27,938 bases of DNA from a virus. The notes under the pieces were generated by a model, which did not search any database, was not told where the DNA came from, and worked only from the letters and a program-made list of their open reading frames with translations. The stretch covers positions 1 to 27,938 of the IMG/VR virus record IMGVR_UViG_3300025102_004520. One strand, given 5' to 3'. The position numbers and the translations under genes are program-made. Shown one piece after another: positions 6,920 through 26,595 of the stretch (its first letter is position 1; every line of letters begins with the position of its first letter).

Positions 6920-7123
6920 ATGAGACCAACTCCTCCTTTCCCATCGCATCCTGAATACATGAACGGTAGACTTAAAAAGATAGATATGACTGCTAGACTT
7001 GATCATATGAAGAATGGTCTTGCTAATAAGAGTTGGTATCCTGAATGGGATGCTCGTCAAAGAGGTGCTGCCCAACGCATTCTAAATAATGCATTGGATG
7101 TCCTTGACGAGTATGACTATTAA
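6920..7123 (+). CDS. Small conserved-type phage protein, function unknown
   Basis: This is a 67-residue soluble protein with an amphipathic, charged sequence (MNGRLKKIDMTARLDHMKNG; EWDARQRGAAQRILNNALDV) and no membrane segment or cysteine. A purine-rich GAAAGAAG stretch precedes the start. Its 3' end overlaps the endonuclease-like gene by 11 nt, and it follows nrdB by 25 nt, so it is probably co-transcribed with the dNTP genes. I do not recognise a characterised family. Confidence 0.68.
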   Translation: MRPTPPFPSHPEYMNGRLKKIDMTARLDHMKNGLANKSWYPEWDARQRGAAQRILNNALDVLDEYDY

Positions 7124-7553
7124 GTATGAGAATCCTTGGAGATATAATAAAAAAGTATTTGAATCATCTAATATAGGAGATTATTTTGGGTTTGTATATA
7201 GTATCCTAAATAATAAAAACGGAAGAGAGTATATTGGACGTAAATACTTCTGGCAATTTAGAACCCCAAAAGGAAAGAAACGGAAAGTCAAATCCGAATC
7301 CGATTGGAAGAAGTACTATGGGTCTTGTCCAGAACTTAAAGAAGAAATTGGAAAGATTGGTAGAGAAAATTTTAGTCGAACTATCTTATCATTACATCAT
7401 ACAAAAGGCAAAACAAACTTCGAGGAAACCAGACAACTCTTTGCACACGGAGTTCTTACAGAGCAACTTGACGACGGAACACCAAAGTTCTATAATAGTA
7501 ACATCCTCTCAAGATACTTCAGAAAAGATTACTATGGAACCGAAGACAACTGA
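7113..7553 (+). CDS. GIY-YIG-like (SegE-type) putative endonuclease
   Basis: I choose the ATG at 7113, which overlaps the preceding stop, over an upstream in-frame ATG buried in the previous gene, giving 146 residues. The N-terminal core shows GFVY (26-29) followed by YIGRKYFW (40-47), matching the GIY-YIG pattern with the conserved Arg43. A basic stretch follows (TPKGKKRKVKS). Homologous-looking proteins near nrd genes in T4-like cyanophages are annotated as putative endonucleases, which fits the freestanding homing endonucleases of T4-like phages. A glutamate candidate for metal binding lies in NFEETRQLF. No intron is visible nearby. It overlaps the next ORF by 20 nt. Confidence 0.7.
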   Translation: MTIKYENPWRYNKKVFESSNIGDYFGFVYSILNNKNGREYIGRKYFWQFRTPKGKKRKVKSESDWKKYYGSCPELKEEIGKIGRENFSRTILSLHHTKGKTNFEETRQLFAHGVLTEQLDDGTPKFYNSNILSRYFRKDYYGTEDN

Positions 7554-7722
7554 AGATATTATTGCACATGTAAGAGAATGGGCAATTGATAAGATTGAAG
7601 AAGCACCTTTATGTGGAGAGAAGATAGCATTGTATGAGGAGTTTGGTGAATGGATTGATTTGGATGACGTAGAGGAATTGGAGATTGTATCCCTAGAAGA
7701 AGACCTAGAAGAAGGGGGTTGA
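7534..7722 (+). CDS. Small acidic protein, function unknown
   Basis: I choose the ATG at 7534; the frame is open further upstream but only inside the endonuclease gene. The product is 62 residues and strongly acidic (DIIAHVREWAIDKIEEAP; LDDVEELEIVSLEEDLEEGG). It is probably an amphipathic helical protein. It overlaps the endonuclease 3' end by 20 nt. Its last codons contain the -35 box of the next promoter, so it closes this transcription unit. No family recognised. Confidence 0.6.
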   Translation: MEPKTTEDIIAHVREWAIDKIEEAPLCGEKIALYEEFGEWIDLDDVEELEIVSLEEDLEEGG

Positions 7723-7747
7723 CAAGGGTTGACAGAGGTGGTATATT
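7719..7747 (+). promoter_or_regulatory. Strong sigma70-type promoter for the structured leader/purS unit
   Basis: TTGACA at 7719-7724 is followed after a 17-nt spacer by TATATT at 7742-7747, a near-ideal host-type promoter. A second TTGACA at 7729-7734 is too close to any -10 to pair with it. The expected RNA start is around 7754, leaving a leader of about 215 nt before purS. Confidence 0.75.
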
Positions 7748-7753
7748 ATATTT

Positions 7754-7930
7754 GTTGAGTTGACGAACCCAACATGGGAGTGACTGAATCAAACTTGCTG
7801 GCATAAGGCTAGTTAAGGTGACGAGACACAGGTGGTGCTGCACGTTGAAAACGTGAATCGATTTACCAGTCGGGTCTTGGACAGTGAGGTAAAAATCTAC
7901 TAATGTAGCAATGCCCCTTACTTGTTGGTA
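7754..7930 (+). ncRNA. Structured 5' leader RNA, candidate manA-type element
   Basis: The 247-nt stretch 7723-7969 has no credible gene but carries dense complementary pairing. A closing helix pairs 7769-7774 with 7923-7928 (CCAACA/TGTTGG), extended by GGG 7776-7778 with CCC 7915-7917. Inside are hairpins at 7794-7817 (CTGGC/GCTAG core), 7841-7855 (CACGTT/AACGTG), 7862-7893 (TTTACC/GGTAAA with an inner GTC/GAC) and 7897-7908 (CTAC/GTAG). A multibranch domain between a strong promoter and purS plus a mannose-6-phosphate-isomerase-type gene matches the reported setting of manA RNA motifs: marine T4-like cyanophages, upstream of mannose-isomerase and nucleotide-synthesis genes. The structure is seen by eye; the motif name is inferred from context, since I do not remember its exact consensus. 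Confidence 0.6.
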
Positions 7931-7969
7931 TACATTAATCCAACCTCCCACCCAAACATTTTTAATGAT

Positions 7970-8293
7970 ATGAGATTTAAAGCATTAGTTTTCGTTAGGT
8001 TAAGAGGATCTGTATCAGATGCTGCTGGTAATGCAGTGATGAATAATGTCAATAGAATTGCCCCTAATCTCACACCACATTTGTTGAGGATTGGTAAGGT
8101 AATTGATTTTTGGTTTGATGCAGAGACTGAAGAGATAGCACGAGAAGAAATGGATCTTCTGTCTGATAGGATGCTTTCTAATACAGTCATAGAAGATTGG
8201 GAATATAAATTAGAAGAAACTGAAGAAACTGGCATAGGGAATATATCAAACGATAATGCTGGCACTTCAAAGCATCATTTGTTTGGAGATTAA
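7970..8293 (+). CDS. purS: Phosphoribosylformylglycinamidine synthase subunit PurS
   Basis: This is a 107-residue protein. I use the ATG at 7970 because the upstream TTG extension falls in the leader. Residues 1-83 follow the PurS fold: [22 protein letters not shown], then [22 protein letters not shown], then [15 protein letters not shown]. PurS bridges PurL and PurQ in the glutamine-dependent fourth step of purine synthesis. It has a polar C-terminal tail of about 24 residues ([20 protein letters not shown]) beyond the normal 80-85 residue length. No purL or purQ is in the window, so it may join the host complex. No clear Shine-Dalgarno is seen, which would suit leader control. It is 2 nt from the next gene. 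Confidence 0.85.
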
Positions 8294-8295
8294 AA

Positions 8296-8652
8296 ATGGA
8301 AAAGGAAGAAAGACCTTGGGGACATTATATTGTTACTGACCAAGGCAATAGATATAAAGTTAAAAGTATTCATGTAGATGCTGGTGCAAGTCTTTCTCTG
8401 CAGAAGCATTATCATAGAGCAGAGCATTGGGTTGTAGTAGAGGGAACTGCCAAGGTAGAAGTGGATGGTAAAGAAACCTTAATATATGAGAACCAAAGCA
8501 CCTATATACCATTAGGAGCAGTTCATAGATTATCTAATCCAGGCAAAGTTCCATTAAGGATAATTGAAGTATCAAGTGGATCTTATCTAGGAGAAGATGA
8601 TATAGAAAGATACGAAGATAATTATGGACGTTTAGATAAAGAACAATGTTAA
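8296..8652 (+). CDS. Mannose-6-phosphate isomerase-type cupin (type II PMI C-terminal domain)
   Basis: This 118-residue single-domain cupin has RPWGHY (6-11), the metal-binding motif [11 protein letters not shown] (His38, His40, Glu43), [13 protein letters not shown] (His77) and the ending [22 protein letters not shown]. This is the signature of the C-terminal isomerase domain of ManC/AlgA-type bifunctional enzymes, here without the GDP-mannose pyrophosphorylase half. It should interconvert fructose-6-P and mannose-6-P, the entry to GDP-mannose and hence GDP-fucose made by gmd and fcl about 11 kb downstream. It follows purS by 2 nt and overlaps the next gene by 7 nt. All metal ligands are present; its real substrate is inferred. 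Confidence 0.82.
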
Positions 8653-10319: not shown

Positions 10320-10967
10320 ATGAAAATTTTTCTTGACACTGCCGAAACAGATGTCGTTCGTAAACACTTCAAAAGTGGTTTGATTGATGGGTTAACAACA
10401 AACCCTACTCTTATTAGAAAAAGCGGTAAGAATCATGAGGATGTATACCAGCAGTTTAAAGATATTGGATTAACTGATATCAGTATGGAAGTGATTGGTA
10501 ATGCAGAGAATATGATCTCTGAAGGTAAGAGACTTCATAAGAAGTTTGGTAAGGTTGCTACAATCAAAGTTCCTTGCACAGTTGATGGACTTCTTGCATG
10601 TAAAGAATTAGCAGAAAGTAATATTAAAGTTAATGTGACCTTGATATTTTCTCAAGCACAAGCAATCCTTGCTGCAAAAGCAGGTGCCGCATATGTATCA
10701 CCATTCGTAGGTAGAGTGGATGATAATTCATTTGGTGGACTGTGCCTTGTTAAAGATATTGCAAATGTTTATAAGGTTCATGGAATAGAAACTAAAGTTC
10801 TTGCTGCTTCTCTTAGAGGTGTGCGGGATGCTGCTAGAGCATTTGAGTATGGTGCTGACATTGTTACGATGCCACCAAATGTTTTCTCTGGTATGTTTAA
10901 GCACATCTTAACTGATGCTGGATTAAAACAGTTTGACATTGATTATGCGGAGAGCATTAAAGAATGA
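10320..10967 (+). CDS. talC: Transaldolase (TalC/fructose-6-phosphate aldolase-like)
   Basis: This 215-residue single-domain beta/alpha barrel of the short transaldolase type has MKIFLDTAE (Asp6), DGLTTNPTLI (Asn28) and the Schiff-base lysine in ATIKVPCT (Lys83), followed by NVTLIFSQAQAILAAKAGA and YVSPFVGRVDD. Transaldolase moves a dihydroxyacetone unit in the pentose phosphate pathway. Cyanophage TalC is a well-known auxiliary gene thought to push carbon towards ribose-5-P and NADPH while host carbon fixation is held back. The active-site lysine is present and length is normal for the family. The stop overlaps the next start (ATGA). Confidence 0.93.
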   Translation: MKIFLDTAETDVVRKHFKSGLIDGLTTNPTLIRKSGKNHEDVYQQFKDIGLTDISMEVIGNAENMISEGKRLHKKFGKVATIKVPCTVDGLLACKELAESNIKVNVTLIFSQAQAILAAKAGAAYVSPFVGRVDDNSFGGLCLVKDIANVYKVHGIETKVLAASLRGVRDAARAFEYGADIVTMPPNVFSGMFKHILTDAGLKQFDIDYAESIKE

Positions 10968-12136: not shown

Positions 12137-12970
12137 ATGATAGGTTTTAATGCACTGGGACATCTTGGGAGATTGGGAAATCAGATGTTCCAATTTGCAG
12201 CACTCAAAGGTATTGCTCGAAATAGGGGATATGAGTACTGTATTCCTCCGTCGCAGATGCAAGGAGAATGGAAAGATCATCATCAATATTATAATGCTGT
12301 AGGAACTGGTGTAGCACAACATCAATTACTACAACCATTTAAGTTAAGTAATACTAATCAACTTAACTTACAGTTTATAGATCAAGATAGACCTGTGGTT
12401 CAGGAGGGAAGTTTTACATTCAATGAAGATCTATTTAATAACTGTCCTGACTGGGTAACTATACAAGGATTCTTTCAGACAGAAAAATACTTTAAGCATA
12501 TACGTGATGAGTTAAGAGGAGACTTTGAGTTTAAGGAGGATATATTAATTCCTTGTAAAGAGATGATGGCAGAGATACAGGAACCAGTATCATTACATAT
12601 CCGTAGGACAGATTATATCAGCAATCCTAATCACAGTGCATTAGGATTAGAATATTATGAGAAAGCATTGAAGCAATTTGATAAGAGATCTACTATTGTT
12701 GTTTTCTCTGATGATCCAGAGTGGTGTAATGAGCAGGAGTTGTTTGCTTCAGATAGATTCTTGGTTGCGGAAAAGAATAGTACTTATGTTGACATGTGTT
12801 TGATGACTTTATGTAAGGGTCATATCATTGCTAACAGTTCATTCTCTTGGTGGGGTGCATGGTTATCAGATAGTGAACAGGTAATAGCACCTTCTGGATG
12901 GTTTGCTGGATCTAATAATGAGCAGATGGATACGAGTGATATTGTTCCTAAATCATGGAGAGTATTATAA
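12137..12970 (+). CDS. GT11 alpha-1,2-fucosyltransferase
   Basis: This 277-residue protein has the N-terminal GRLGNQMFQFAAL motif (11-23), the GDP-fucose-binding HIRRTDY motif (154-160) and the ANSSFSWWGAWL motif (232-243), the three hallmarks of family GT11. These enzymes transfer fucose from GDP-fucose to galactose, making Fuc-alpha-1,2-Gal (the H-type structure). The GDP-fucose makers gmd and fcl are in the same operon. Length (about 280-300) is normal. It heads the operon behind a terminator/promoter junction, and its stop shares one base with the start of the GT6 gene. The linkage specificity is a family inference. Confidence 0.88.
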   Translation: MIGFNALGHLGRLGNQMFQFAALKGIARNRGYEYCIPPSQMQGEWKDHHQYYNAVGTGVAQHQLLQPFKLSNTNQLNLQFIDQDRPVVQEGSFTFNEDLFNNCPDWVTIQGFFQTEKYFKHIRDELRGDFEFKEDILIPCKEMMAEIQEPVSLHIRRTDYISNPNHSALGLEYYEKALKQFDKRSTIVVFSDDPEWCNEQELFASDRFLVAEKNSTYVDMCLMTLCKGHIIANSSFSWWGAWLSDSEQVIAPSGWFAGSNNEQMDTSDIVPKSWRVL

Positions 12971-13689
12971 TGAAAGTTGCTATTACTTTTATAGGAACTA
13001 ATAGGTATCTTGATTACTTACCCAAGTATTATGAGAATATTGAAAAGTATTTCTTACCTAATACTGAAAAGGTTATACTTGCATTCACTGATGGTGAGTT
13101 AAACGATACACCAGACAATCTTAAAGTATATCCTCAAGAGCATTTAGATTGGCCATTCATTACTCTTAAAAGATTTGAGATTATTAATAAGGCAAGAGAT
13201 GTTATTGATGAGTGTGATTGGTTAGTCTTTATAGATGCTGATGCTATACCTGTAACTACTATTACTGAAGAAGAGTTCCTTACAGATAAACCTTTGTTTG
13301 GTGTTCATCATCCATGTCATTACCTTGGTATGGATCCACATACTAAAGCACCAGGTGCATATGAACAGAATCCAAAGTGTGAAGCATATGTAGATGTTTC
13401 TAAATCACTTCCTCCTGTTTATTGGCAAGGATGTCTGTGGGGTGGTAAAGTTCCTGAAGTATGTGCTATGATAGATGAGTTGGAGGCAAGAGTTAATCGT
13501 GATTTGGAAAATGATATCGTTGCTGTGTGGCACGATGAAACACAGATCAATAGATACTTTTTAGAAAGAACACAAGATGTTCATACCTTTGGTCCTTCGT
13601 ATGCATTTCCTGAAGTATTTGAAGAGCATTGTAACTTTTCTCCAAAAATAGTTCATCTTGCAAAAGATAATTCTAAATACCATCAGTGA
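12970..13689 (+). CDS. GT6-family (ABO/alpha-1,3-Gal(NAc)-type) glycosyltransferase
   Basis: I use the ATG at 12970 (TAATG overlap) rather than an in-frame ATG five codons upstream, giving 239 residues. GT6 signatures are present: the DxD motif in FIDADAIPV (Asp89, Asp91), the acceptor-site segment YWQGCLWGG (151-159), and AVWHDETQINRYF (185-197) with Glu190 in the place of the catalytic glutamate. It lacks a membrane anchor, like the bacterial members. GT6 enzymes add Gal or GalNAc alpha-1,3 to a galactose that is often already fucosylated. The neighbouring GT11 gene supplies just that acceptor type. A GT6 member in a cyanophage has been noted in the literature; the donor sugar here is unknown. 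Confidence 0.83.
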   Translation: MKVAITFIGTNRYLDYLPKYYENIEKYFLPNTEKVILAFTDGELNDTPDNLKVYPQEHLDWPFITLKRFEIINKARDVIDECDWLVFIDADAIPVTTITEEEFLTDKPLFGVHHPCHYLGMDPHTKAPGAYEQNPKCEAYVDVSKSLPPVYWQGCLWGGKVPEVCAMIDELEARVNRDLENDIVAVWHDETQINRYFLERTQDVHTFGPSYAFPEVFEEHCNFSPKIVHLAKDNSKYHQ

Positions 13690-13698
13690 ATTGAATCT

Positions 13699-14364
13699 AT
13701 GAAAAATTGTAATCGCTTCATTCGTAATTCTGATCTGCCAGAAGCAATGAGAATTAGAGATGAGAATGGTTGGATACAGAAGTATCCTCATAAGACAAGT
13801 TTAGGTAATCATTGGAACAGAGGTGAAGCATTACTCAAGTGGGTATTTGCATTGCGTAACTTTGGTATAGGAGAGAGTGGTAAGAAAGTAATTGATCTAG
13901 GAACTAACAATGGATGTGTCCCTCATGTAGTTGCAGACTGGGGTAATGAAGCAATTGCAATGGACTATATTAATCCAGATTATCCACCCCCACCATCTGC
14001 ATGTGAGATGTTAGTAGCAGATGCTTTTACATGGTTGCCAACATTAGAAGAAGAAAGTATAGATGTTGTATTTGATATATGTGCAGTTCATTTATTTGAT
14101 ATTACACATGATGAAGAGATTGGTAACTATGGATTGCTTAAAATTGGAAAGTTGGTTCATAGGATTTTAAAGCCAGGTGGGAGATTTATTATTTCATCTG
14201 ATGCTGGTGATGAAGATCATGGTGAGTTCTCTAATGCAGAAACATTCATTAAAATGATTGAGAAGTCTGGTTTGAAACTAACTTCTCCTTTTGATTACAC
14301 AGTAGATGATGATACCTTCTACAGTAAACCCTATAAAGTTGTTACATTAGTATTTGAAAAGTAA
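13699..14364 (+). CDS. Class I SAM-dependent methyltransferase
   Basis: This 221-residue protein has methyltransferase motif I VIDLGTNNGC (64-73), a following acidic strand end (AIAMDYINPD), a motif IV-like DVVFDICAVHLFD, and a post-motif segment HRILKPGGRFIISSDA typical of class I enzymes. It sits in the glycan operon, so a small sugar or polysaccharide O-methylation role is likely but not shown. The stop shares a base with the next start (TAATG). The N-terminal 60 residues (RFIRNSDLPEAMRIRDENGW) are outside the core fold and may define the substrate. Confidence 0.8.
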   Translation: MKNCNRFIRNSDLPEAMRIRDENGWIQKYPHKTSLGNHWNRGEALLKWVFALRNFGIGESGKKVIDLGTNNGCVPHVVADWGNEAIAMDYINPDYPPPPSACEMLVADAFTWLPTLEEESIDVVFDICAVHLFDITHDEEIGNYGLLKIGKLVHRILKPGGRFIISSDAGDEDHGEFSNAETFIKMIEKSGLKLTSPFDYTVDDDTFYSKPYKVVTLVFEK

Positions 14365-15062
14365 TGGATTTAAAAGATTTGGAATTGGTCACTGCTCTTG
14401 ACCAAAGTTTTTATGATGGTTTTAACTCCTTTATGTTAAGTTCAGACTTGAAGGTGTTTGGAAAACTATTAGCACGTACTCAATTATTTGATAAGGTAAA
14501 AGATATACCAGGTGATATTGTTGAGTGTGGTGTATTTAAAGGAACAGGTCTCTTTACTTTCTTAAAGTTGAAGAGATATTTTTGTCCTAATACGGGAAAG
14601 AAAGTTATAGGATTTGATTTCTTTGATTCAGAAAAGTTGACTTCTAGTTTATCTGAGCAGGATAAAGAAGCAATGACCACTCTATTTGAGGGTAGAAACT
14701 TCCAACACGAGTCCTCCTTCCAAACTGAACTAGACTATACTATCCGTAAGTCTGGTTTTGAGGATCATGAATATGAACTTATAGGTGGTGATATATCGAA
14801 AACTGTGGTAGAATTTGTATCACAAAGACCTGGTGCAAAGATTTCACTATTGTATCTGGATTTGGATTTAGATGCCCCTACTTATGATACTCTTGTAGCA
14901 TTGTGGGATAGGGTTAGTAGTGGTGGTATAGTTGTCTTTGATGAGTATGCTTTCCATAACTGGTCTGAATCTGTTGGTGTTGATAGATTCTTTGCTGATA
15001 AAGATATTAACATTGAATCTCTTAACTTTGTTGCACCTTCTGCTTACGTTGTAAAACCATGA
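14364..15062 (+). CDS. TylF/MycF-type O-methyltransferase
   Basis: This 232-residue protein has DIPGDIVECGVFKGTG (47-62) as the SAM-binding motif, and LLYLDLDLDAPTYDTL followed by GGIVVFDEY, which is the TylF-family signature including the metal-binding acidic residues. TylF enzymes O-methylate deoxysugars in macrolides, and relatives are widespread in marine bacterial polysaccharide clusters. Here it probably methylates a sugar of the phage-directed glycan. It overlaps the next gene by 4 nt. This is a different subfamily from the methyltransferase just upstream, so two distinct methylations are likely. Confidence 0.85.
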   Translation: MDLKDLELVTALDQSFYDGFNSFMLSSDLKVFGKLLARTQLFDKVKDIPGDIVECGVFKGTGLFTFLKLKRYFCPNTGKKVIGFDFFDSEKLTSSLSEQDKEAMTTLFEGRNFQHESSFQTELDYTIRKSGFEDHEYELIGGDISKTVVEFVSQRPGAKISLLYLDLDLDAPTYDTLVALWDRVSSGGIVVFDEYAFHNWSESVGVDRFFADKDINIESLNFVAPSAYVVKP

Positions 15063-16429
15063 ACAAACTTGTTATATTTGATCTAGATGGTGTTCTTATT
15101 GATAGTAGGGACATGCATTATGATGCCCTTAACCGTGCTCTTGCAAAGGTAGATGAGAAGTATGTAATAACAAGAGAAGAACACTTAAGTGTTTTTGATG
15201 GTCTTCCCACTACACGAAAACTAGAACTCCTTACAGAGAAGAAAGGTTTACCTGTAGTTGAGTATGATACTATCTGGCAGGATAAGCAAACAGCAACTCT
15301 GGATATATTCTCTGAATTAAAACCAGACTATGAGTTGATGCATTACTTCCAGCAACTCAAAGAGAAAGGATATAGTATTGCAGTTGCAAGTAACAGTGTG
15401 CGTAATACTGTTAAACTTGTTCTACTTCGTTTAGGATTACTAGAGTTTGTTCATTACCACTTAAGTAATGAAGATGTATTCAGAAGTAAGCCATTCCCTG
15501 AAATGTATTGGCGTTGCATGATAGCATGTAATGCTCTTCCAAAAGATACTGTTATCTTTGAGGACAGTCACATTGGTAGACAGGGTGCATTAGATAGTGG
15601 ATCTCATCTAATTGCTATTGAAGACAGACCTGATCTTACACAAAGTAAGATTGATAAGGTCTTTGAGATCTTTGAAACTAAAAAAGTAACACACATCCCT
15701 TGGAAATCAGAAAAAATGAATGTTTTAATTCCTATGGCAGGTGCTGGCAGTCGTTTCGCACAAGTTGGATATAGTTTTCCGAAGCCTTTAATCGAGGTAA
15801 ATGGCAAGCCAATGATACAAGTGGTGCTAGAGAACCTGAATATTGAAGCAAACTTTACTTTTGTTGTTCGTAAAGAGCATTATGAAAAGTATAGTCTACA
15901 ATATCTTCTCACTTTGATTGCACCTAATTGTAACATTGTTCAAGTTGATGAATTGACAGAAGGATCTGCTTGCACTACGATGTTAGCGAAAGAATTTATT
16001 AATAATGATGATCCTCTTCTTCTTGCAAACTCCGATCAGTTTATGGAGTGGAATAGTAATGAGTGTCTTTACGCTTTTAATGCTGATGGTATTGATGGGG
16101 GTATATTAACCTTTAAGGCAACTCACCCTAAATGGTCTTATGCTAAAGTTGGTGCTGACGGATTTGTATCAGAAGTAGCAGAGAAGAAACCAATCAGTGA
16201 GGATGCAACAGTAGGTGTATATTATTGGAAGAAAGGTTCTGACTATGTTAAGTATACAGAGCAGATGATTGAAAAGGATATTAGAACCAATGGTGAGTTT
16301 TATATTTGTCCAGTATTTAATGAAGCGATTGCTGATGGTAAGAAGGTAAGGATTAAAGAGATTGAAAGAATGTGGGGTATCGGAACTCCCGAAGATCTAT
16401 CTTATTTCTTGGAACATTATAAAGGATGA
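15059..16429 (+). CDS. HAD phosphatase-nucleotidyltransferase fusion protein
   Basis: This 456-residue two-domain protein has residues 1-210 as a HAD phosphatase with DLDGV (Asp8, Asp10), the motif II serine in ASNSV (Ser111), Lys144 (SKPFPEMY) and EDSHIG (Glu168, Asp169). Residues 220-456 are a sugar-phosphate nucleotidyltransferase with PMAGAGSRF (225-233), FPKPLIEVNGKPM (240-252) and an ANSDQ metal site. The pairing suggests dephosphorylation and nucleotide activation of one sugar, as in heptose-type pathways, but the sugar is not identifiable. An internal ATG at 15716 falls exactly at the second domain, so a separate transferase could also be made. It overlaps both flanking genes by 4 nt. 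Confidence 0.85.
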   Translation: MNKLVIFDLDGVLIDSRDMHYDALNRALAKVDEKYVITREEHLSVFDGLPTTRKLELLTEKKGLPVVEYDTIWQDKQTATLDIFSELKPDYELMHYFQQLKEKGYSIAVASNSVRNTVKLVLLRLGLLEFVHYHLSNEDVFRSKPFPEMYWRCMIACNALPKDTVIFEDSHIGRQGALDSGSHLIAIEDRPDLTQSKIDKVFEIFETKKVTHIPWKSEKMNVLIPMAGAGSRFAQVGYSFPKPLIEVNGKPMIQVVLENLNIEANFTFVVRKEHYEKYSLQYLLTLIAPNCNIVQVDELTEGSACTTMLAKEFINNDDPLLLANSDQFMEWNSNECLYAFNADGIDGGILTFKATHPKWSYAKVGADGFVSEVAEKKPISEDATVGVYYWKKGSDYVKYTEQMIEKDIRTNGEFYICPVFNEAIADGKKVRIKEIERMWGIGTPEDLSYFLEHYKG

Positions 16430-16893
16430 AACTAATTGCCCATCGGGGAAACACGCATGGACCTGATGCTAAACAAGAAAACAATCCTGATTACATTGAC
16501 AAATGTTTATCGGAAGGGTATGATGCAGAGATTGATGTACGGTATGATTCTTTAACCACTGTCTTTTGGTTGGGTCACGATGAACCTCAATACAAAGTAA
16601 GTTGGAAGTGGATGGCAAACCGTTCTGAACTTCTATGGATACATTGTAAAGACATCACAACTCTACATGAGTTTACCAAGTATGAACATGCAGGGTATCA
16701 GTATTTTTGGCACGATCAAGATGACCATACTCTAACCAGTAATAAGTATATCTGGACATTTCCAGGTAAACCTTATACTCCAAAATCCATAATGGTTATG
16801 CCAGAATGGAATACAAAAATAAGTAATCTAAATGATTTGAGAGCAGTTAATTGTTATGCAATCTGCAGTGACTATGTTGCACATCTACAATAG
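16426..16893 (+). CDS. Short glycerophosphodiester phosphodiesterase-like protein
   Basis: This 155-residue protein shows the PI-PLC-like/GDPD barrel signature: IAHRGN (His6, Arg7), AEIDVR (Glu35, Asp37) and LGHDEP (His51), the general acid/base and metal ligands. GDPD proteins usually run 230-300 residues, so this is a shortened barrel, and the later strands (CKDITTLHEF, YFWHDQDDHTLT) are compact. Related short proteins occur in capsule and LPS clusters of marine bacteria. It might trim or add glycerol-phosphate groups. No frameshift is seen, so the short length looks native. Confidence 0.72.
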   Translation: MKLIAHRGNTHGPDAKQENNPDYIDKCLSEGYDAEIDVRYDSLTTVFWLGHDEPQYKVSWKWMANRSELLWIHCKDITTLHEFTKYEHAGYQYFWHDQDDHTLTSNKYIWTFPGKPYTPKSIMVMPEWNTKISNLNDLRAVNCYAICSDYVAHLQ

Positions 16894-16902
16894 AGGAATT
16901 TA

Positions 16903-17487
16903 ATGGCAAACGTTTTTACTAGAGACTTGAACGATCCTATGGATGATGTTCAACAAAAGATTAAGGATAAGATGATTGAGGTCACTAAGCTTGAGTTGAC
17001 TGATAAAGCATCCTATCATGCCTATGAAGAAGTATATCCATTTCTATTGGATAAGTTTATAGGTAAGAAGTGTAATATGTTAGAGGTTGGTATGTCATGG
17101 GGTGGAGGGATGCAAATTCTTTCTGAACTTTTCCCTGATTCCAATATCTATGGGGTGGATTGGGATGTATCTTTACTACGAATTGATACAAAAAACTGGT
17201 CTAATATGACTATCTTTGAGTCAGATCAACGTGATCCTACTCTTGCTGATAAACTTCCTATGTTAGATTTTGTGACAGAGGATTGCTCACATCAGATGCC
17301 AGATTCTATCAGAACATTTGAGATACTAGAACCAAAGTTAAATCCTGGTGCAGTCTATGTGATTGAAGATGTGTATCCACAGTTTTGGGATGCTTATTGT
17401 GCAGATGGAAGATTTGATATGTATGATGTAACCCATGTAAAAGATAGATCAGATGATCGTCTTGCTGTTTATAGGAAACCTGAATGA
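16903..17487 (+). CDS. SAM-dependent methyltransferase (cephalosporin-hydroxylase-like type)
   Basis: This 194-residue protein has MLEVGMSWGGGMQIL (59-73) as the SAM motif, YGVDWD as the strand-2 acidic end, and DFVTEDCSHQMPDSIRTFEI then GAVYVIEDVYP as the metal-site and late motifs. This arrangement is common to small methyltransferases of antibiotic and LPS clusters (CmcI-like/type 24). A good ribosome-binding site GAGGA lies at 16893-16897. It is the third methyltransferase in the operon and overlaps the next gene by 4 nt. Glycan methylation is inferred from the setting. Confidence 0.78.
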   Translation: MANVFTRDLNDPMDDVQQKIKDKMIEVTKLELTDKASYHAYEEVYPFLLDKFIGKKCNMLEVGMSWGGGMQILSELFPDSNIYGVDWDVSLLRIDTKNWSNMTIFESDQRDPTLADKLPMLDFVTEDCSHQMPDSIRTFEILEPKLNPGAVYVIEDVYPQFWDAYCADGRFDMYDVTHVKDRSDDRLAVYRKPE

Positions 17488-18236
17488 GAATAGCAGCATG
17501 TTTCGCAGGACAACCACGATTCATTAATGAATGTGCTCCTAGCATACTACAAAATGTATTCAAGGATCAGCAGGTAGATGTCTTTGCACATCTATGGTTC
17601 TGTGATGAACTTCATAATGAAACCTTTAAGTATGGTGGAGACGGTGGATGGGAAGGTTATAGAATACCCAAGACTGCTGTTGATGATTTTATCCGTCACT
17701 ATAAACCAGTTGATATTAAAGCAGAACCTAGTGTTCACTTCTATGATCCTTACATGGAAGAAGGATTTGATATACCTTTGAATAAGTATTGGGGTGGTGG
17801 TAATAATGAACCAGATTATATGCCAAGACAGATAGACAGAACGCTATCTAATTTCTATAGTCAGAGTGAAGCATGTAAGTTGAAGTCACTCTATGAGTAT
17901 AATAATAAGTTTAAGTATGATTGGGTGTTTAAGTTCAGACCAGATGTGCAGATTCATAATCAAATCAACCTAGAAGATTATTCGCCTCATGCTTTTAATT
18001 GCATGGCACATACCTGTGGGTTTGATAGTCACATCAATGACTGGTTTGGGTTTGGTGGGTCTGATATAATGGATGTATTCATGGGTGTATTTCCTATGTT
18101 CCAAAGAATATTTGATTTGACTAAGTATAATAATGAAGGAGCATGGGACAATGAAACATTACATGCTCAAGCTCTACACCAAATGGGTATAGAGATACAG
18201 AAACATCCCTTTGCTCTTACCGTACCAAGGTTATGA
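17484..18236 (+). CDS. Putative glycosyltransferase (SGQPR-type family)
   Basis: This 250-residue protein opens with IAACFAGQPRFI, like a group of glycan-cluster proteins beginning with a GQPR motif, then has VDVFAHLWF, WVFKFRPDVQIH (a DxD-like RPD site near residue 152) and DWFGFGGSDIMDVF with WDNETLHAQALHQMG near the end. This is a GT-A-like arrangement in which RPD may bind a metal-nucleotide sugar. There is no membrane segment. It overlaps both neighbours by 4 nt. The family is recognised loosely; donor and acceptor are unknown. Confidence 0.66.
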   Translation: MRIAACFAGQPRFINECAPSILQNVFKDQQVDVFAHLWFCDELHNETFKYGGDGGWEGYRIPKTAVDDFIRHYKPVDIKAEPSVHFYDPYMEEGFDIPLNKYWGGGNNEPDYMPRQIDRTLSNFYSQSEACKLKSLYEYNNKFKYDWVFKFRPDVQIHNQINLEDYSPHAFNCMAHTCGFDSHINDWFGFGGSDIMDVFMGVFPMFQRIFDLTKYNNEGAWDNETLHAQALHQMGIEIQKHPFALTVPRL

Positions 18237-19201
18237 AAATTGTTATCTGGGGTCATCCCCTACATTCACACACCCATTCATATGTCCATCAAGGATACTA
18301 TGATGGGTTTAAAAGTTTAGGTCATGAGGTATATTGGTTTCATGATGATGACTATCCAGAGGACTTTGATTTTACTAATACCTTATTCATAGGTGAAGGA
18401 TTTGCTGATAAGAAGATACCTATCAATGATAGCAGCACATACTTCATCATGTATCTTCCTGACCCAAGGAAGTATGATGGTGCAAAGAGACTTGTTGATG
18501 TAAAACTAACTGCTACTAATTTTAAGGATCATATTATTGAGTGGTCTTTTGATGAGAGTAAGTGTCAGAGTATGGGACCAAGTGTATGGTTTGAACCCAA
18601 GACTAATGAATTAATTAAGTTGAAGAATGATTATATTGATGTAGAGATACCTGACTATGATAAGATGTATATTAGTTGGGCAAGTAATCTACTACCAGAG
18701 CAGATAAACTTTGATGATATGTATATGGAAAGAGAGAATGCCATATACTTCTGTGGAACTATCTCCCCTCATGGTGTATGTGAGAACTGGTCTAACTGGG
18801 AACCCTTTATACAACAGTGTTCAGAGAATGGTATAGACTTTCATTGTAATGATGTATGGTCGAATCCACTATCATTCGATGAAGTTCAGAAACAGGCACA
18901 GAAATCTATTCTTGGTGTCGATATTCGCAGTAAAGAACATGTAAGACAGAGATTGGTAACGTGTAGAGTCTTTAAGAATATAAGTTATGGTCACTTGGGT
19001 ATGACTAATTCAGAACAAATCTATCAAGAGATGGATGGGAACTGTATTTACAATGAAGATCCTGCTGCATTGTTTCATGAGGGGATGGCAAATAGAGAAA
19101 ACTATGATATGATACGTAAAGGTATGCAATACGTAAAAGAGAACCATACATACATCAATCGTTGTAGTTCGGTTCTTAAGATCTTTGAGGAAGGTGAATG
19201 A
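18233..19201 (+). CDS. GT-B-like glycosyltransferase
   Basis: This 322-residue protein has an N-terminal Rossmann-like half ([39 protein letters not shown]) and a C-terminal half containing [32 protein letters not shown] and [19 protein letters not shown], resembling the donor-binding domain of CgeB/GT-B-type transferases, where a C-terminal segment reads V-F-K-x-I-S-Y-G. No membrane anchor is present. It overlaps the previous gene and gmd by 4 nt. Donor and acceptor cannot be read from the sequence. Confidence 0.68.
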
Positions 19202-20226
19202 AGACTGCCCTTATTACAGGTATCACAGGACAAGATGGTTCTTATCTTGCCGAATTTTTATTAGAAAAGAACTATAGAGTGCATGGATTGATTCGTAGAA
19301 ACTCCACATCAGATGGAACAGATAGGATCAATCATTTACTCAAGCTTCCGTCTATCACATTACACTATGGTGATATGACGGACTTTGCTTGTCTTGCTGA
19401 ATTGATTAAAGAGGTTCAACCAGATGAGATATACAATCTAGCAGCACAGAGTCATGTAAAGGTATCATTTTCTAATGCTTTATATACTGCTGATGCTAAT
19501 GGTCTAGGAACTCTTCGTATCCTTGAGACTATTAAACTTCTAGGTATGGAAAAAACTACTAGATTTTATCAGGCAGCAACGTCAGAGATGTTTGGTGAGG
19601 TGCAGTCAATACCACAGAGAGAAGATACACCTTTCTATCCACGTTCTCCTTATGGTGTAGCAAAGTTATATGCACACTGGATCACCAAGAACTACCGTGA
19701 AGCATATGGTATGTTTGCTTGTAGTGGTATTCTATTCAACCATGAGTCTCCACGCAGAGGTGAGACATTTGTAACTCGTAAGATTACAAAGACTCTTGCA
19801 GAGATTAGAAATGGTAAGAGAATACTCCCATTAGAACTAGGTAATCTAGATGCCAAGAGGGATTGGGGTCATGCAAAAGATTATGTAGAAGCAATGTGGT
19901 TGATGCTACAGCAAGAAGAACCAGAAGATTTTGTTATTGCAACAGGTCAACAACATACTGTAAGAGAGTTTGTTGATGCGGCTTTTGATTATATGGGATA
20001 TAGTATAGAATGGGTTGGAGAAGGATTAAAAGAAGTTGCTAAAGACTATGGCACAGGAGAAGTGCTAGTTAAGATTAACCCAGAGTTTTATAGACCTGCT
20101 GAAGTAGATTCTTTGGTGGGTGATTGCACTAAAGCAAAAGAAACATTGGGGTGGAAACACAACTATTCTTTCACTCAATTGGTGGAAGAGATGTGTAAAT
20201 ATGATTTAGAAAATACGAGGGATTGA
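19198..20226 (+). CDS. gmd: GDP-mannose 4,6-dehydratase (Gmd)
   Basis: This 342-residue extended short-chain dehydrogenase has NADP-binding [12 protein letters not shown] (8-19), RRNST, and the catalytic set Thr128, Glu130 (ATSEMFG), Tyr152 and Lys156 (YGVAKLYAH), followed by [20 protein letters not shown]. It converts GDP-mannose to GDP-4-keto-6-deoxymannose, the first committed step to GDP-L-fucose (or GDP-rhamnose and related sugars). All active residues are present and the length is typical. It is directly followed by fcl, completing the GDP-fucose branch, and the GT11 user is in the same operon. Confidence 0.95.
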
Positions 20227-20228
20227 TT

Positions 20229-21149
20229 ATGGAAAAGAATGCTACTATCTTCGTTGCAGGACACAAAGGTCTTGTAGGTTCTGCAATTGTTCGTAAACTT
20301 AAAGAGCAGGGACATAATAATATTATTACTGCTACTAGGCAAGAGTGTGATTTAATAGATCCTAATCAGGTCAAAGATCTCTTTGAAAAGAATAGGATTG
20401 ATTATGTTTTTGATGCTGCTGCTAAAGTAGGTGGTATCAAAGCAAACGATACTTATTCAGCAGAGTTTATCTATCAGAACACAATGATTCAGACTAACCT
20501 GATTCATTATGCTTACAAGTATTTTGTTAAGAAGTTCTGCTTTTTGGGATCGGTTTGTATCTATCCAAAGTATGCACCTACACCTGTGAAAGAGGAGTCT
20601 CTACTGTGTGGTGAGTTGGAACCTACTAATGAAGGATATGCTGTTGCAAAGATACACGGCATTGAGATGTTGAAGATGTATAATAAGCAGTATGGATTTA
20701 AGGGTGTATCTATTATGCCTTGTAATCTATATGGTATGGGAGATAACTTCCATCCAGAGAACAGTCATGTGATTCCTGGTATGATCAGAAGATTCCATGA
20801 AGCAAAGGGAGATACTGTTGAGTGTTGGGGTGACGGAACTCCTATGAGAGAGTTTATGTATTCTGATGATATAGCAGATGCTTGTGTATTTGCTATGAAT
20901 AATTATGAGAATGCAGAGTTAATTAATGTTGGTTCGGGTGAGGATGTATCTATCAAAGAACTTGCTGAAACTATTGCTTCTGTAACGGGGTATAAAGGTG
21001 AGATAGTTTGGGACACAACTAAACCAAATGGAACACCAAAGAGACCACTAGACTATTCTAAAATCTCTGCACTAGGTTGGAAACCAAAGCATAAATTAAG
21101 AGAAGGACTTGAGAAGTCTTATCAGTGGTTCTTGGAGAATTGCGTCTAA
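20229..21149 (+). CDS. fcl: GDP-L-fucose synthase (Fcl/WcaG)
   Basis: The ATG at 20229 is preferred over an upstream TTG because it lies 2 nt after gmd and gives the usual N-terminus, 306 residues. NADP-binding IFVAGHKGLVGSA (7-19) is followed by the active site FLGSVCIYP (Ser108, Cys110), YAVAKIHG (Tyr137, Lys141) and HPENSHVIPG (His180). The enzyme epimerises and reduces GDP-4-keto-6-deoxymannose to GDP-L-fucose. The epimerase cysteine and histidine are both present, so it should make fucose rather than stop earlier. The stop shares a base with the next start (TAATG). Confidence 0.94.
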   Translation: MEKNATIFVAGHKGLVGSAIVRKLKEQGHNNIITATRQECDLIDPNQVKDLFEKNRIDYVFDAAAKVGGIKANDTYSAEFIYQNTMIQTNLIHYAYKYFVKKFCFLGSVCIYPKYAPTPVKEESLLCGELEPTNEGYAVAKIHGIEMLKMYNKQYGFKGVSIMPCNLYGMGDNFHPENSHVIPGMIRRFHEAKGDTVECWGDGTPMREFMYSDDIADACVFAMNNYENAELINVGSGEDVSIKELAETIASVTGYKGEIVWDTTKPNGTPKRPLDYSKISALGWKPKHKLREGLEKSYQWFLENCV

Positions 21150-21961
21150 TGAAAGTAACATTTGTTTCTGCACTCTTTGATATCAATAGAGTTGATGGTC
21201 GTAAATGGGAAGAGTATCTTAAGTGGTTTGAGATCACTCTTAAGTTGAGAGTTCCTATGGTCTTGTTTGTCAACAGGGACATGCAAGAGTATATTGATGA
21301 GAGAAGAGGAGATATGTTCAGTGATAATGAGTATCTAAAAACTCAAACTCTGTATCAGACTGTAGAAGATATACCTTATTATGGATTGAAGGATCAGATA
21401 CAGGAGATATTAGATTCAGATCAGTATAAAAAGGATATGGCAGATCCTGAAAGAATAGAATGTAAGCAAGCAATGTATCCTATCATTCAGTATTCTAAAT
21501 TTCCTTGGCTTACACAAGCAGCAGCAATGAATCCACATGGGTCTGATTATTTCTTTTGGTTAGATGCTGGTGGTTCAAGATTCTTTGAGGACTATGATCT
21601 AACACAGAACTATCCTAGTGAAGAAGCAAAGAAAGCATTAGATGATATGGGAGATAGTTTTTTGCTTCAGATGAACACAGAATACTATACTGATCTTGCG
21701 AATGCAAAGACATTAAGCACTGATTATCTTTACGATAATAGGTCTTATGTGTTAGGATCTATGTTTGGTGGTCATAAGAAGTCATTATTCAGAGTATGTG
21801 ATATGGTTCACGATGTTCTGATGAATGATATGATTGCAAACAACACTATTAATAATGAACAGATAGCATTGGGATACCTTATTAAGAAGTATCCTGATGA
21901 GTTTTCTCTTTATGAGAGAACCAATCAAAAACACATGGCACTTTTTCACGAATTAGGATGA
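21149..21961 (+). CDS. HtrL/YibB-type putative glycosyltransferase
   Basis: The protein is 270 residues from the ATG at 21149 (TAATG overlap). It opens with VTFVSALFDINRVDGRKWEE and EITLKLRVPMVLFVNRDMQE, the style of the HtrL_YibB family found in LPS loci, with a GT-A-like aspartate site DYFFWLDAGGSRFF (about residues 131-144) and a conserved-looking GSMFGGHKKSLFRV region. The family is generally classed as of unknown function but glycosyltransferase-like. It overlaps the following GT4 by 4 nt. Confidence 0.7.
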   Translation: MKVTFVSALFDINRVDGRKWEEYLKWFEITLKLRVPMVLFVNRDMQEYIDERRGDMFSDNEYLKTQTLYQTVEDIPYYGLKDQIQEILDSDQYKKDMADPERIECKQAMYPIIQYSKFPWLTQAAAMNPHGSDYFFWLDAGGSRFFEDYDLTQNYPSEEAKKALDDMGDSFLLQMNTEYYTDLANAKTLSTDYLYDNRSYVLGSMFGGHKKSLFRVCDMVHDVLMNDMIANNTINNEQIALGYLIKKYPDEFSLYERTNQKHMALFHELG

Positions 21962-22911
21962 AAGTATCAATAGTCGGACCAGGTATTATGCCTATCCCTC
22001 CTACAGGGTGGGGAGCAGTAGAGATTCTAATATGGGATCAGAAACTAGCATTAGAAAAATTAGGACATGAGGTTGACATTGTTAATACTCAAAGTCCTGT
22101 TGAGATTTTATCTCAAGTAAACAAGTTTAGACCAGACTTTGTTCATATACAGTATGATGATTTTATTGAACTCTATCCTTATATCCAATATCCTCGTGCT
22201 ATTACAAGTCACTTTGGATATCTTGAACAGACTAATAAATGGGACTATTATGGGGAACGGATTGCCAAACCATTTGGTAAGATAAAACCAAATGTATTCT
22301 GTTTGTCAGATGGTATTGCTGATACTTATCTTATAAATTTAGGCATTCCTCATGAAAATCTTTTTGTAACTCCTAATGGTGTTAATGTAGGTAAGTTTAG
22401 AGTAGAGACTATTCCTGAAAGATTATCTGATAGTATCTACCTTGCTAAGATTGATTATAGAAAGAGGCAACATATGTTCCAGTCAATAAGGAACCTATAT
22501 TATGCAGGTAATACTGCTGACCCTAGATTTGATACAAGTAATAATTATCTCGGTGAGTGGTCAAAGGAAACATTATATAATGACTTGACAAAGTATGGTA
22601 ATCTTGTGCTATTATCTGATGGTGAAGCACATCCTCTTGTATGTTTAGAAGCATTTGCTGCTGGTCTAGGAGTGGTAGTTAGTCAGTGGGCTGCTGCTAA
22701 TCTTGACACTAGTAAAGATTTCATCTCTGTTATACCAGAAGATAAAATATCTGATATTGAGTTTGTAGAGAATGAAATCCTACAGAATAAGTTCTATTCT
22801 ATCAATCATCGTCAAGAGATTCTAGATTATGCAAAGACATTTGATTGGACAGAGGTTGTAAAAAATTATTATATACCTGCTATGGAAACCATTATTGGAA
22901 ACTACAAATGA
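21958..22911 (+). CDS. GT4-type (GT-B) glycosyltransferase
   Basis: This 317-residue protein has an N-terminal acceptor domain with the loop PGIMPIPPTGWGAVEI (8-23), a central linker with VTPNGVNVGKF, and a donor domain with LLSDGEAHPLVCLEAFAAGLG, which carries the family EAFAAG glutamate in the E-x7-E position (Glu near 221 and 229). This is a short GT4. It uses an activated sugar to extend a glycan and overlaps both neighbours by 4 nt. Donor unknown. Confidence 0.85.
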   Translation: MKVSIVGPGIMPIPPTGWGAVEILIWDQKLALEKLGHEVDIVNTQSPVEILSQVNKFRPDFVHIQYDDFIELYPYIQYPRAITSHFGYLEQTNKWDYYGERIAKPFGKIKPNVFCLSDGIADTYLINLGIPHENLFVTPNGVNVGKFRVETIPERLSDSIYLAKIDYRKRQHMFQSIRNLYYAGNTADPRFDTSNNYLGEWSKETLYNDLTKYGNLVLLSDGEAHPLVCLEAFAAGLGVVVSQWAAANLDTSKDFISVIPEDKISDIEFVENEILQNKFYSINHRQEILDYAKTFDWTEVVKNYYIPAMETIIGNYK

Positions 22912-23765
22912 AAGTTGAACTAGGTCGTTATGAATTAGATTTGGACTTTGATCCAAGAGTAGAAAGGAACTCTACTGAAGAGATGATTCCTATTGAAGAC
23001 ATTGGTTTTGTTTACAACTGTGTGTTCAAGCAGAAGGCAGCATTTGTGCATTCAGTAGAAAGGATTAGAGAAGTATATCCTGACTCAAAACTATACTGTG
23101 TATCTGATGGTGGTTTGGATTACTCTTTCCTACAGGATGAGAATATTGAAACTACAATGGAAGATGATACTCTTTCTATACTGAAGCACATCAATCCTCA
23201 AACTTATAAGCAACCTGAAATGCAAGCTGCTATTAAGAAAGGTATTGCTGCAACACTTGATAGAGTAGAACGTGGTATTAAGTTCTGTGGCAATCCTGAA
23301 TGGACTTGTGTTACAGAACCTGACGTATTGATTCGTGGTAAGGTTAGTTATCCTAAAGGTGCTAAACTTCTAGGGTCAAGAGTAAACTATGCATGGTTAA
23401 GTGAAGAGTGTTTGGATATGTTCATGGGTATGAATGGTCTTCTAGGGGAGATTGAAGGTGCTATCCCTGTGGTTAGATGGGGTGCTGTTCCTGTTATATT
23501 CCATACTGAAACATTCTTGAAAGCACTGAAAGTTTATAGAGAGAATTTTGATCTACTTGATAAGTTGACAGAACATCATTATAATCCAGGTGTATTTGAT
23601 CTTCTATTTCCATTAGTCTTTGCACTGGTAGGAGAGGAAGAAGTTTACACTAGTGAGATTACAGAGTGTCTTCGTAACCCTCAATGGTATACTTCAGATC
23701 ATCCTGTAGTTCATCAGTATAGAGAATATTACGAAGATTCTGACTGGGTTTCCAAACCTTCTTGA
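22908..23765 (+). CDS. Putative GT-A-type glycosyltransferase
   Basis: The ATG at 22908 overlaps the preceding stop (ATGA) and gives 285 residues; the upstream in-frame extension lies inside the GT4 gene. Residues 30-75 (DIGFVYNCVFKQKAAFVHSV; YCVSDGGLDYSF) look like the nucleotide-binding half of a GT-A fold, and WTCVTEPDVLIRG offers a Glu-Pro-Asp-Val site in place of DxD. It has no transmembrane anchor. It is last of the 14-gene run before a new promoter. I have no firm family; glycosyltransferase is the best fit from fold pattern and neighbours. Confidence 0.6.
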   Translation: MKVELGRYELDLDFDPRVERNSTEEMIPIEDIGFVYNCVFKQKAAFVHSVERIREVYPDSKLYCVSDGGLDYSFLQDENIETTMEDDTLSILKHINPQTYKQPEMQAAIKKGIAATLDRVERGIKFCGNPEWTCVTEPDVLIRGKVSYPKGAKLLGSRVNYAWLSEECLDMFMGMNGLLGEIEGAIPVVRWGAVPVIFHTETFLKALKVYRENFDLLDKLTEHHYNPGVFDLLFPLVFALVGEEEVYTSEITECLRNPQWYTSDHPVVHQYREYYEDSDWVSKPS

Positions 23766-23790
23766 TAAAACTATATTCTTGTGCTAGAAT
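23762..23790 (+). promoter_or_regulatory. Extended -10 promoter driving nadE
   Basis: TTGATA (23762-23767), a 17-nt spacer and TAGAAT (23785-23790) preceded by TGC, an extended -10. It overlaps the stop of the upstream gene and is 21 nt from the nadE start. This restarts transcription within the glycan region. Confidence 0.68.
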
Positions 23791-23811
23791 TTGAGCACAT
23801 AGATTAATCGT

Positions 23812-24567
23812 ATGAATCGTATCAAAGATTACGAGAAATTAAAATTTGATATTGATAGATGGTTGAAAGATTATTACTACTTTCATTCTATCAAATCCTT
23901 TGTAGTAGGAGTATCTGGTGGAATTGATTCCGCAGTTGTTTCTACCCTTTGTGCTGAAACAGGACTGCCTACTTATATCCTGACAATGCCTCTTCATTCT
24001 AAAGAAGGGAATACTGAATTGTCGGATTTACATGCTTATCAATTAGTTGAAAAGTATCCTAACGTAACCATAGTTAATGTTGATTTGTCCAAAACATATG
24101 ATGCATTCATGGATACTGTTTATGAAGGATTTACTATTAATCCTTTGGCAAATGCAAATACAAAGTCCCGTCTACGTATGGTAACTCTTTATCAGATTGC
24201 TGGAGCGATGGGTGGTATTGTAGTAGGAACAGGAAACAAGATCGAAGATTATGGAATTGGTTTTTATACTAAGTATGGTGACGGTGGCGTTGACATTGCT
24301 CCTATTGCTGATCTATATAAAACGGAAGTTTGGGAACTGGGGAAACGATTAGGAGTTGATGAGCGTATCATTGATGCCCTTCCAACAGACGGTTTGTGGG
24401 ATGATGATAGAAAGGATGAAGATCAGATCGGAGCATCCTATGAGCAGTTAGAAGAAGCAATGGAGCATAGAAGAGGACCAGCACTGGATATATTGGATGA
24501 GTTTAATAGAAAAAACAAACACAAAATGGAACCTATTCCTACATTTAAATTGGAGAAATTATCATGA
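23812..24567 (+). CDS. nadE: NAD synthetase, ammonia-dependent (NadE)
   Basis: This 251-residue protein has a PP-loop ATP motif VSGGIDSA (34-41), then SRLRMVTLYQIAG, VVGTGNKIEDYGIGFYTKYG (the pyrophosphate/deamido-NAD-binding loop) and IADLYKTEVWELGKRLG. It adenylates and amidates nicotinate adenine dinucleotide to NAD using ammonia; the glutaminase domain of the larger form is absent. NAD-making genes occur in several T4-like phages. Here it is expressed from its own promoter, next to a nucleotide-sugar dehydrogenase that consumes NAD; that link is inferred. It overlaps the next gene by 4 nt. Confidence 0.92.
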   Translation: MNRIKDYEKLKFDIDRWLKDYYYFHSIKSFVVGVSGGIDSAVVSTLCAETGLPTYILTMPLHSKEGNTELSDLHAYQLVEKYPNVTIVNVDLSKTYDAFMDTVYEGFTINPLANANTKSRLRMVTLYQIAGAMGGIVVGTGNKIEDYGIGFYTKYGDGGVDIAPIADLYKTEVWELGKRLGVDERIIDALPTDGLWDDDRKDEDQIGASYEQLEEAMEHRRGPALDILDEFNRKNKHKMEPIPTFKLEKLS

Positions 24568-25787: not shown

Positions 25788-26595
25788 GAATAAATCTGCA
25801 TATAAACTTGGGGGTATTGGACCCATTTATTGTATTAATTTGGATGGGCAACCTGAAAGATGGGAGTTCATGGAGAACCAATTTAAGTATTGGGAAGTAA
25901 AAGACTATACTCGTATCTCTGCTTATGATGGTAGGGAAGATGATTTAAGTGATATTATACAAGGACGGTATCCAGAAATGATGTCGTCAGGTGAGATAGG
26001 ATGCACTACATCACATCTTAAAGCAATGAAGCATTTCTTGGATACTAGTGATGCTCCTTATGCAATCATGATGGAAGATGATTGCGATTTAGAATTGGTT
26101 AAGTATTGGAATTTTACTTGGGCAGACTTATATGCACACTTTCCATATGATTGGGATGTGGTTCAGATGGCTATCATATGCACAGGAGATTTGCATGTAA
26201 GACTTCATAAGAGATTTGTAAATGATTTCTCTACTGCTTGCTATGCAATTACTAGACATCATGCAGAGAAGTTAGTAAGGTTGCATTGTAGAGGTGGCTA
26301 TACTGGTAAGCAAAAGTATAAGTTGGATCAAGGTGTTAAACCTAGACCTGTTGCAGATGATTTAGTTTATAATTCAGGTAATACATTTGCTATTCCTTTG
26401 TTCATGTATAAGGTAGAGTTGGGTTCAAGTATTCATCCAGAGCATGTGGATGTCTTTCATAAAGGTAATCATGAAGCACTTTGGGGATACTGGTCACAGG
26501 CAGGAGCAAGTATGAGCGTTGCAGAACAAATGAACTATGATCCTTATTTGGGTAGGATAACAGAAAATTCTCAAGCAAAACAGAAGCAAGAGTGA
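25780..26595 (+). CDS. GT25-family LPS glycosyltransferase
   Basis: I choose the ATG at 25780; an in-frame ATG six codons upstream (25762) is possible. The protein is 271 residues with YCINLDGQPERWEFMENQF (17-35), typical of the GT25 start, SGEIGCTTSHLKAMKHFLD (residues 71-89), YAIMMEDDCDL (the DDxD-like site) and ADDLVYNSG towards the end. GT25 transferases add galactose or other hexoses to LPS oligosaccharides, and relatives act on collagen. It is the last glycan gene before the terminator region. The 25780 start overlaps the upstream stop by 8 nt. Confidence 0.82.
   Translation: MDKNKSAYKLGGIGPIYCINLDGQPERWEFMENQFKYWEVKDYTRISAYDGREDDLSDIIQGRYPEMMSSGEIGCTTSHLKAMKHFLDTSDAPYAIMMEDDCDLELVKYWNFTWADLYAHFPYDWDVVQMAIICTGDLHVRLHKRFVNDFSTACYAITRHHAEKLVRLHCRGGYTGKQKYKLDQGVKPRPVADDLVYNSGNTFAIPLFMYKVELGSSIHPEHVDVFHKGNHEALWGYWSQAGASMSVAEQMNYDPYLGRITENSQAKQKQE

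Follow-up and report, generated by a model that had tools for sequence, protein, structure and literature searches.

The window analysed here is a virus record of 27,938 nucleotides (IMG/VR IMGVR_UViG_3300025102_004520) that resembles T4-like cyanophages such as P-SSM2 and carries a structured leader in front of purS and a mannose-6-phosphate-isomerase-type cupin gene. The locus raises the question of what kind of RNA this leader is, and whether the genes behind it reveal what it does. A sequence-only reading had taken the leader for a manA RNA and the pairing of purine and mannose genes for a clue to its ligand. The manA RNA family (RF01745; Weinberg 2010, PMC2864571; Rfam 14 update, PMC7779021) is filed as cis-regulatory and, from its neighbour genes, as a possible riboswitch (PMC2864571). 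It has been a riboswitch candidate since 2010, and our literature search found neither a published manA ligand nor a published manA transcript.

The manA RNA of the window and its fold

The Rfam covariance model for manA matched the leader over its full length (model positions 1-192 of 192) with 158.6 bits and E=1.8e-42, above the gathering threshold of 55.2 bits, which bore out the proposed family membership. No other Rfam family reached threshold anywhere in the window, and kinship with a second family was dropped, as further matches in the region 7700-8000 were only at chance level. The leader had been placed at 7754-7930; its location was right, but its end was about 24 nt short, and a boundary at 7930 leaves the last hairpin incomplete and excludes the 3' strand of P1, the closing helix (Table 1). 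As had also been supposed, a strong promoter lies 5' of the leader, with 11 of 12 consensus matches and a TG before the -10 box, and the two genes behind it were identified as purS and the cupin. The transcription start predicted from the promoter position is about 7754, the base of the manA 5' hairpin, so that the predicted start falls at the 5' end of the RNA, as for an RNA with a promoter of its own. The purS ATG lies 15 nt 3' of manA, and nothing purine-rich that would serve as a Shine-Dalgarno sequence was found in CCCAAACATTTTTAATGATATG, in agreement with the sequence-only reading. Neither a terminator near manA nor an expression platform was found in the window.

Table 1. Features of the window, in order of position.
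Feature	Position	Strand	Basis or remark
Sigma-70-type promoter	7719..7747	+	TTGACA 7719-7724, 17 nt, TATATT 7742-7747
manA RNA (RF01745), whole element	7753..7954	+	Rfam, 158.6 bits
P0, 5'-end hairpin of the transcript	7753..7774	+	Rfam structure
P1 closing helix, 5' strand GGGAG	7776..7780	+	100% of cells paired
Inner hairpin, 7797-7802 with 7808-7813	7797..7813	+	94% of cells paired
Inner multibranch arm closed by 7822-7827 with 7874-7879	7822..7879	+	Closing helix 95.8% paired
Inner hairpin, 7883-7889 with 7916-7922	7883..7922	+	97.2% paired; both-side changes in 7/7 pairs
Last hairpin, 7924-7928 with 7940-7944, adjoins P1	7924..7944	+	100% paired
P1 closing helix, 3' strand CUCCC	7945..7949	+	Pairs with 7776..7780
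purS (FGAM synthase PurS subunit)	7970..8293	+	PF02700, E=1.5e-14
Mannose-6-phosphate-isomerase-type cupin	8296..8652	+	PF01050, E=5.3e-49
HAD plus nucleotidyltransferase fusion	15059-16429		Within the sugar cluster
GDP-mannose 4,6-dehydratase	19198-20226		Within the sugar cluster
Phage outer-membrane beta-barrel protein	26775-27164		After the sugar cluster

Support for the structure comes from covariation and not from folding energy, which was unremarkable for the window manA (z = -1.0) and was dropped as uninformative. For the covariation analysis, we took the Rfam structure, minus the poorly aligning P0, and 36 manA sequences, none as much as 88% similar to another. In this set, 90.1% of cells form standard pairs, and 26 of the 48 pairs changed on both sides; the covariation score of 0.290, compared with 0.119 for shuffled and at most 0.064 for slid alignments, was higher than in any of the 500 shuffles or slid versions. 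The GGGAG/CUCCC helix was paired in every sequence. In the closing helix of the inner multibranch arm, five of six pairs changed on both sides, and the arm includes near-invariant GGUGGUG and ACCA stretches; across manA relatives, GUGACUGAA and GGUGGU were near-invariant. The multibranch leader with a closing helix described in the sequence-only reading is thus upheld by both the full Rfam match and the covariation, and the window manA is an ordinary member of the known family.

Several other features of the window were observed. A GIY-YIG SegE-type endonuclease is encoded at 7089-7553, just 5' of manA; its PHROGs label, NAD synthetase (phrog_447), looks like a carried-over misannotation because an NAD synthase domain protein sits at 23812-24567. 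The transaldolase gene talC lies at 10320-10967, 2.4 kb 3' of manA, and the nrdB-talC interval contains manA in the window and in several phages (P-RSM6, P-TIM40, P-TIM68 and P-SSM4). A big surface-sugar gene cluster, here in a cyanophage, occupies 12137-26595 and includes family 11 and 6 glycosyltransferases, an epimerase and a UDP-glucose/GDP-mannose dehydrogenase-like protein, together with the members listed in Table 1.

Neighbour genes, copy number and genomic sites

We compared the window with at least 269 manA matches collected by two DNA-pattern scans of viral contigs and a third scan for a tail hairpin, described below, together with phage records. The position of manA upstream of sugar and nucleotide metabolism genes, as in the window, was not general among these relatives. 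P-SSM7 lacks manA at its purS, which is 90% identical to that of the window, and carries manA elsewhere in the genome. In the single-cell virus AG-345-E15, a purS 85% identical to that of the window directly follows another ORF with no leader, whereas its manA, 97.6% identical to the window manA over 212 nt, precedes an unrelated small ORF; the gene after this ORF, read by eye, looks like thymidylate synthase. AG-345-O18 also has an 85% identical purS without manA. Because relatives of purS lack manA and a near-identical manA occurs elsewhere, the purine-mannose pairing is incidental, as far as sequence can show. The ligand clue was rejected, as the neighbours interchange while manA stays. Nor was manA tied to one metabolic theme and kept with its genes; purS, gp32 and talC are mostly found without it.

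Over 228 manA loci, the next gene was gp32 in 65, talC in 58, the cupin in 10 and purS in 7. The share of gp32 and talC together (123/228, 54%) is more than random placement predicts, with the reservation that the sampling of next genes was redundant and that shared ancestry contributes to the excess. This excess is the strongest argument for a cis role, and a stand-alone RNA does not fully account for it. In such a role, manA would be a riboswitch or leader whose P1 helix is stabilised on binding of a ligand, possibly a metabolite of the sugar or nucleotide kind; the next gene would then be controlled through termination if a U-tract follows P1, and through translation if not. We regard this as unlikely, but it agrees with the classification by Rfam and by Weinberg 2010 (PMC2864571), with the recurrence of gp32, talC, HAD phosphatase, cupin and purS as neighbours and with the next ORF, which is frequently 7-47 nt from manA. 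Furthermore, every next conserved gene that was found ran in the same direction as manA. Opposite-strand ORFs after manA were considered as evidence against a cis role and discarded; those at eight loci resembled shadow ORFs of talC or had no support, and the one in P-TIM68 had no PHROG match.

The copy number and sites of manA argue against control of the next gene. One manA each was found in 15 of 15 complete T4-like cyanophage genomes carrying manA and in P-RSM1, a set of 16 that includes near relatives (P-RSM4 and S-TIM4; P-HM1 and MED4-213) and in which a faint second match might have escaped detection. A single manA was also present on each of five contigs of 95-210 kb, and a 4.8 kb contig (L084; 117-316 and 3637-3837) was the only one seen with two. 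The sites differ. In six genomes manA follows gp23, and in P-SSM3 and P-SSM4 it follows pstS. It precedes purS in P-SSM2, talC in P-RSM6 and P-TIM40, gp32 in P-HM2 and a carbamoyltransferase gene in P-SSM7, and it directly abuts tRNA-Gly in S-SSM7. Both gp32 and talC were present in all 14 genomes tested, and manA precedes gp32 in one of them and talC in two or three. A regulon that responds to a metabolite would not be expected to have a single manA per genome at switched sites, and the near-identical RNA in front of unrelated genes likewise counts against a riboswitch.

The change of site is most evident in P-HM1 and P-HM2, which are one species by their records and whose manA sites are reciprocal, each phage's site being empty in the other. 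At the gp32 site, both have the same promoter; manA starts at +1 in P-HM2, and P-HM1 has about 24 nt instead. At the gp23 site, P-HM2 has a plain terminator, and the terminator of P-HM1 carries a -35 box, a -10 box, manA and a further hairpin with a U-run, followed by a TAAATA-type late-promoter core and then a gene, of which P-HM2 has nearly identical counterparts. It appears that, exactly at +1 of the shared gp32 promoter, either P-HM2 acquired manA or P-HM1 lost it. Different sites in sister genomes and clean empty sites would be expected of a mobile RNA element maintained through its own spread and not through any service to the phage. We consider this highly improbable: the copy number is constant at one, the fold is strongly constrained, every Prochlorococcus-isolated T4-like phage examined carried manA, and no accompanying protein or terminal repeats were seen in the comparison of P-HM1 and P-HM2.

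The occurrence of manA was also skewed with respect to the host. All 12 Prochlorococcus-isolated T4-like genomes examined had manA, and it was not detected in 11 other genomes, Synechococcus-named or Synechococcus-isolated, in a comparison biased by the many manA-positive genomes that were picked because blastn had found manA in them. Three Synechococcus-isolated phages, S-TIM4, S-SSM5 and S-SSM7, do carry it, and the estuarine Synechococcus phage S-CREM1 has been reported with manA (PMC9964418). Among blastn records, manA was found in 20 Prochlorococcus-named and 6 Synechococcus-named phages, compared with 24 and 378 for gp23. Only one of 300 Cyanobiaceae genomes has manA, on a 189 kb contig matching T4-like cyanophages; this near absence from the host family also counts against a riboswitch.

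The 5' and 3' ends of manA among relatives

The promoter seen in the window was a constant feature. With at most one mismatch in 12 to TTGACA/TATAAT, it was found in 123 of 128 relatives (the non-redundant manA copies with 100 nt upstream), compared with 0.8% of random windows, and the first paired base of P0 lay 4-6 nt after the -10 box in 121 of 126. In 46 of the 128 loci, the -35 box sits in the loop of a terminator-like hairpin (GAGGGGTTGACACCCCTC then T7), which could close the upstream transcript while opening manA; examples were observed upstream of manA in L139, L068, L132 and L160 and, in P-HM1, just before manA at 112740. Low-scoring manA copies were observed in L205 (2505-2705), L254 and P-RSM1 (L341), with about 124 bits in L205 and P-RSM1; those of L205 and L254 have a divergent inner sequence in common (AACCCTGTTGGAATTAGGCGGGGTAATG) and are perhaps a subtype.

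The placement of P0 exactly at the predicted start, the gain or loss of manA at +1 in P-HM2 or P-HM1 and the diversity of neighbours would also suit a generic 5' cap, in which the terminal hairpin and compact fold protect or boost whichever mRNA carries them, free of any ligand. A stabiliser of this kind would be expected on many transcripts per genome, whereas manA is on one. The near-invariant internal sequence reaches far beyond the hairpin, and a tRNA or terminator, rather than an ORF, is often next; we therefore think the cap improbable.

A putative 3' end signal of its own, for termination or processing, was seen for many manA relatives, and none was found in the window. Among 155 non-redundant loci, the next conserved ORF was set apart from manA in 93 by a tail hairpin, a terminator, a tRNA or a late-promoter core, in a tally without a random control of its own; 26 had only a U-tract, and 36, the window included, were plain leaders. 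A stricter terminator scan (17 of 161 loci, compared with 1.5% of random windows) was judged too strict and replaced by this combined tally. A U-tract directly followed P1 in 72 of 161 loci (45%; random, 5%), TAAATA occurred within 60 nt of manA in 34 of 161 (random, 4%), and tRNA genes lay about 5-20 nt 3' of manA in some phages. The invariably paired P1 with a U-tract directly behind it could form a terminator-embedded aptamer, which would suit a riboswitch. The tRNA genes and intervening late promoters speak against a riboswitch, as does the lack of a conserved expression platform outside P1.

Additionally, we found a tail hairpin of about 35 nt, GACCUAAGAUGCAACUC-loop-GAGUCGGGCAGAUGGUC, located 2-16 nt after manA in at least 118 copies, all those away from a contig edge. 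It was not present in the window. Among the matches listed, it occurred only directly after manA, for example in L015, L029, L067, L111 and L342. Its basal pair was G-C (99) or A-U (21) with no broken pair, and the apical stem also covaries; the invariance of the internal loop was partly imposed by the search pattern. This loop resembles a kink-turn or UAA/GAN motif, in resemblance only. No Rfam family covered the hairpin above threshold in the loci scanned, and it appears to be a new, optional, manA-only element outside the Rfam manA model.

A putative stand-alone phage RNA and known systems

We favour the reading, at a probability of roughly 0.6, that manA is an autonomous small RNA of the phage, present in single copy, expressed early, probably acting in trans and associated with Prochlorococcus hosts. 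Such an RNA fits better than a metabolite sensor for the next gene because of its single copy, the start fixed to the RNA, the interchangeable neighbours, the frequent separate 3' signals and the absence from host genomes. That the copy number holds at one while the site and the neighbours vary makes a function in trans probable. The sequences themselves show where the promoter sits, how many copies there are, how the site shifts, the tail hairpin and the bias in hosts, whereas early expression, processing at the 3' end and action in trans are deduced. The stronger statement seems evenly balanced to us: that manA is not a cis-regulator at all but the gene of a site-changing, single-copy, early small RNA acting in trans on a Prochlorococcus factor, with the previously undescribed tail hairpin as an optional second domain. 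A cis leader or riboswitch is possible but less probable, and the window manA is one of the leader-like cases.

On the stand-alone reading, host RNA polymerase would start manA at its near-consensus promoter, at the first base of P0, and we infer that it does so early in infection. The RNA would fold into the multibranch domain closed by the invariant GGGAG/CUCCC helix, and its 3' end would come from the adjacent U-tract, terminator or tail hairpin, or from trimming where a tRNA follows. In some phages, including that of the window, polymerase would read into the next gene, and manA would then also be a 5' leader; the window locus could yield both a short RNA and the purS mRNA. The RNA would probably act in trans on a phage or host factor, the host in practice being mostly Prochlorococcus.

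If this is right, what is new is the nature of the manA family and the tail hairpin. Screens of metabolites suggested by the neighbours would be the wrong experiment, and transcript mapping with target capture the right one; a dedicated structured RNA would take part in infection by viruses of a very abundant ocean phototroph. With their reciprocal empty sites, P-HM1 and P-HM2 allow a direct test, and public RNA-seq of P-HM2 on MED4 exists (PMC5082946).

Compared with known systems, wcaG RNA (RF01761) is likewise a cyanophage and marine RNA described alongside manA (PMC2864571), but it is a distinct family. The window manA is like RF01745 in its full-length match above the gathering score, its covarying helices and its T4-like cyanophage origin. 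In contrast to the filing of that family, the survey revealed one copy per genome, a fixed 5' promoter, interchangeable neighbours and an optional tail hairpin. The T4 gene 32 mRNA has a structured autoregulatory leader at its 5' end. By description, manA is similar in that it precedes gp32 in many uncultured phages, but it does so in only one of the 14 complete genomes, all of which have gp32. T4 also encodes, beside its tRNA genes, the stable RNAs C and D, which are small and structured and have no known function; manA can be likened to these by description, not by sequence, although it adjoins a tRNA only in some phages.
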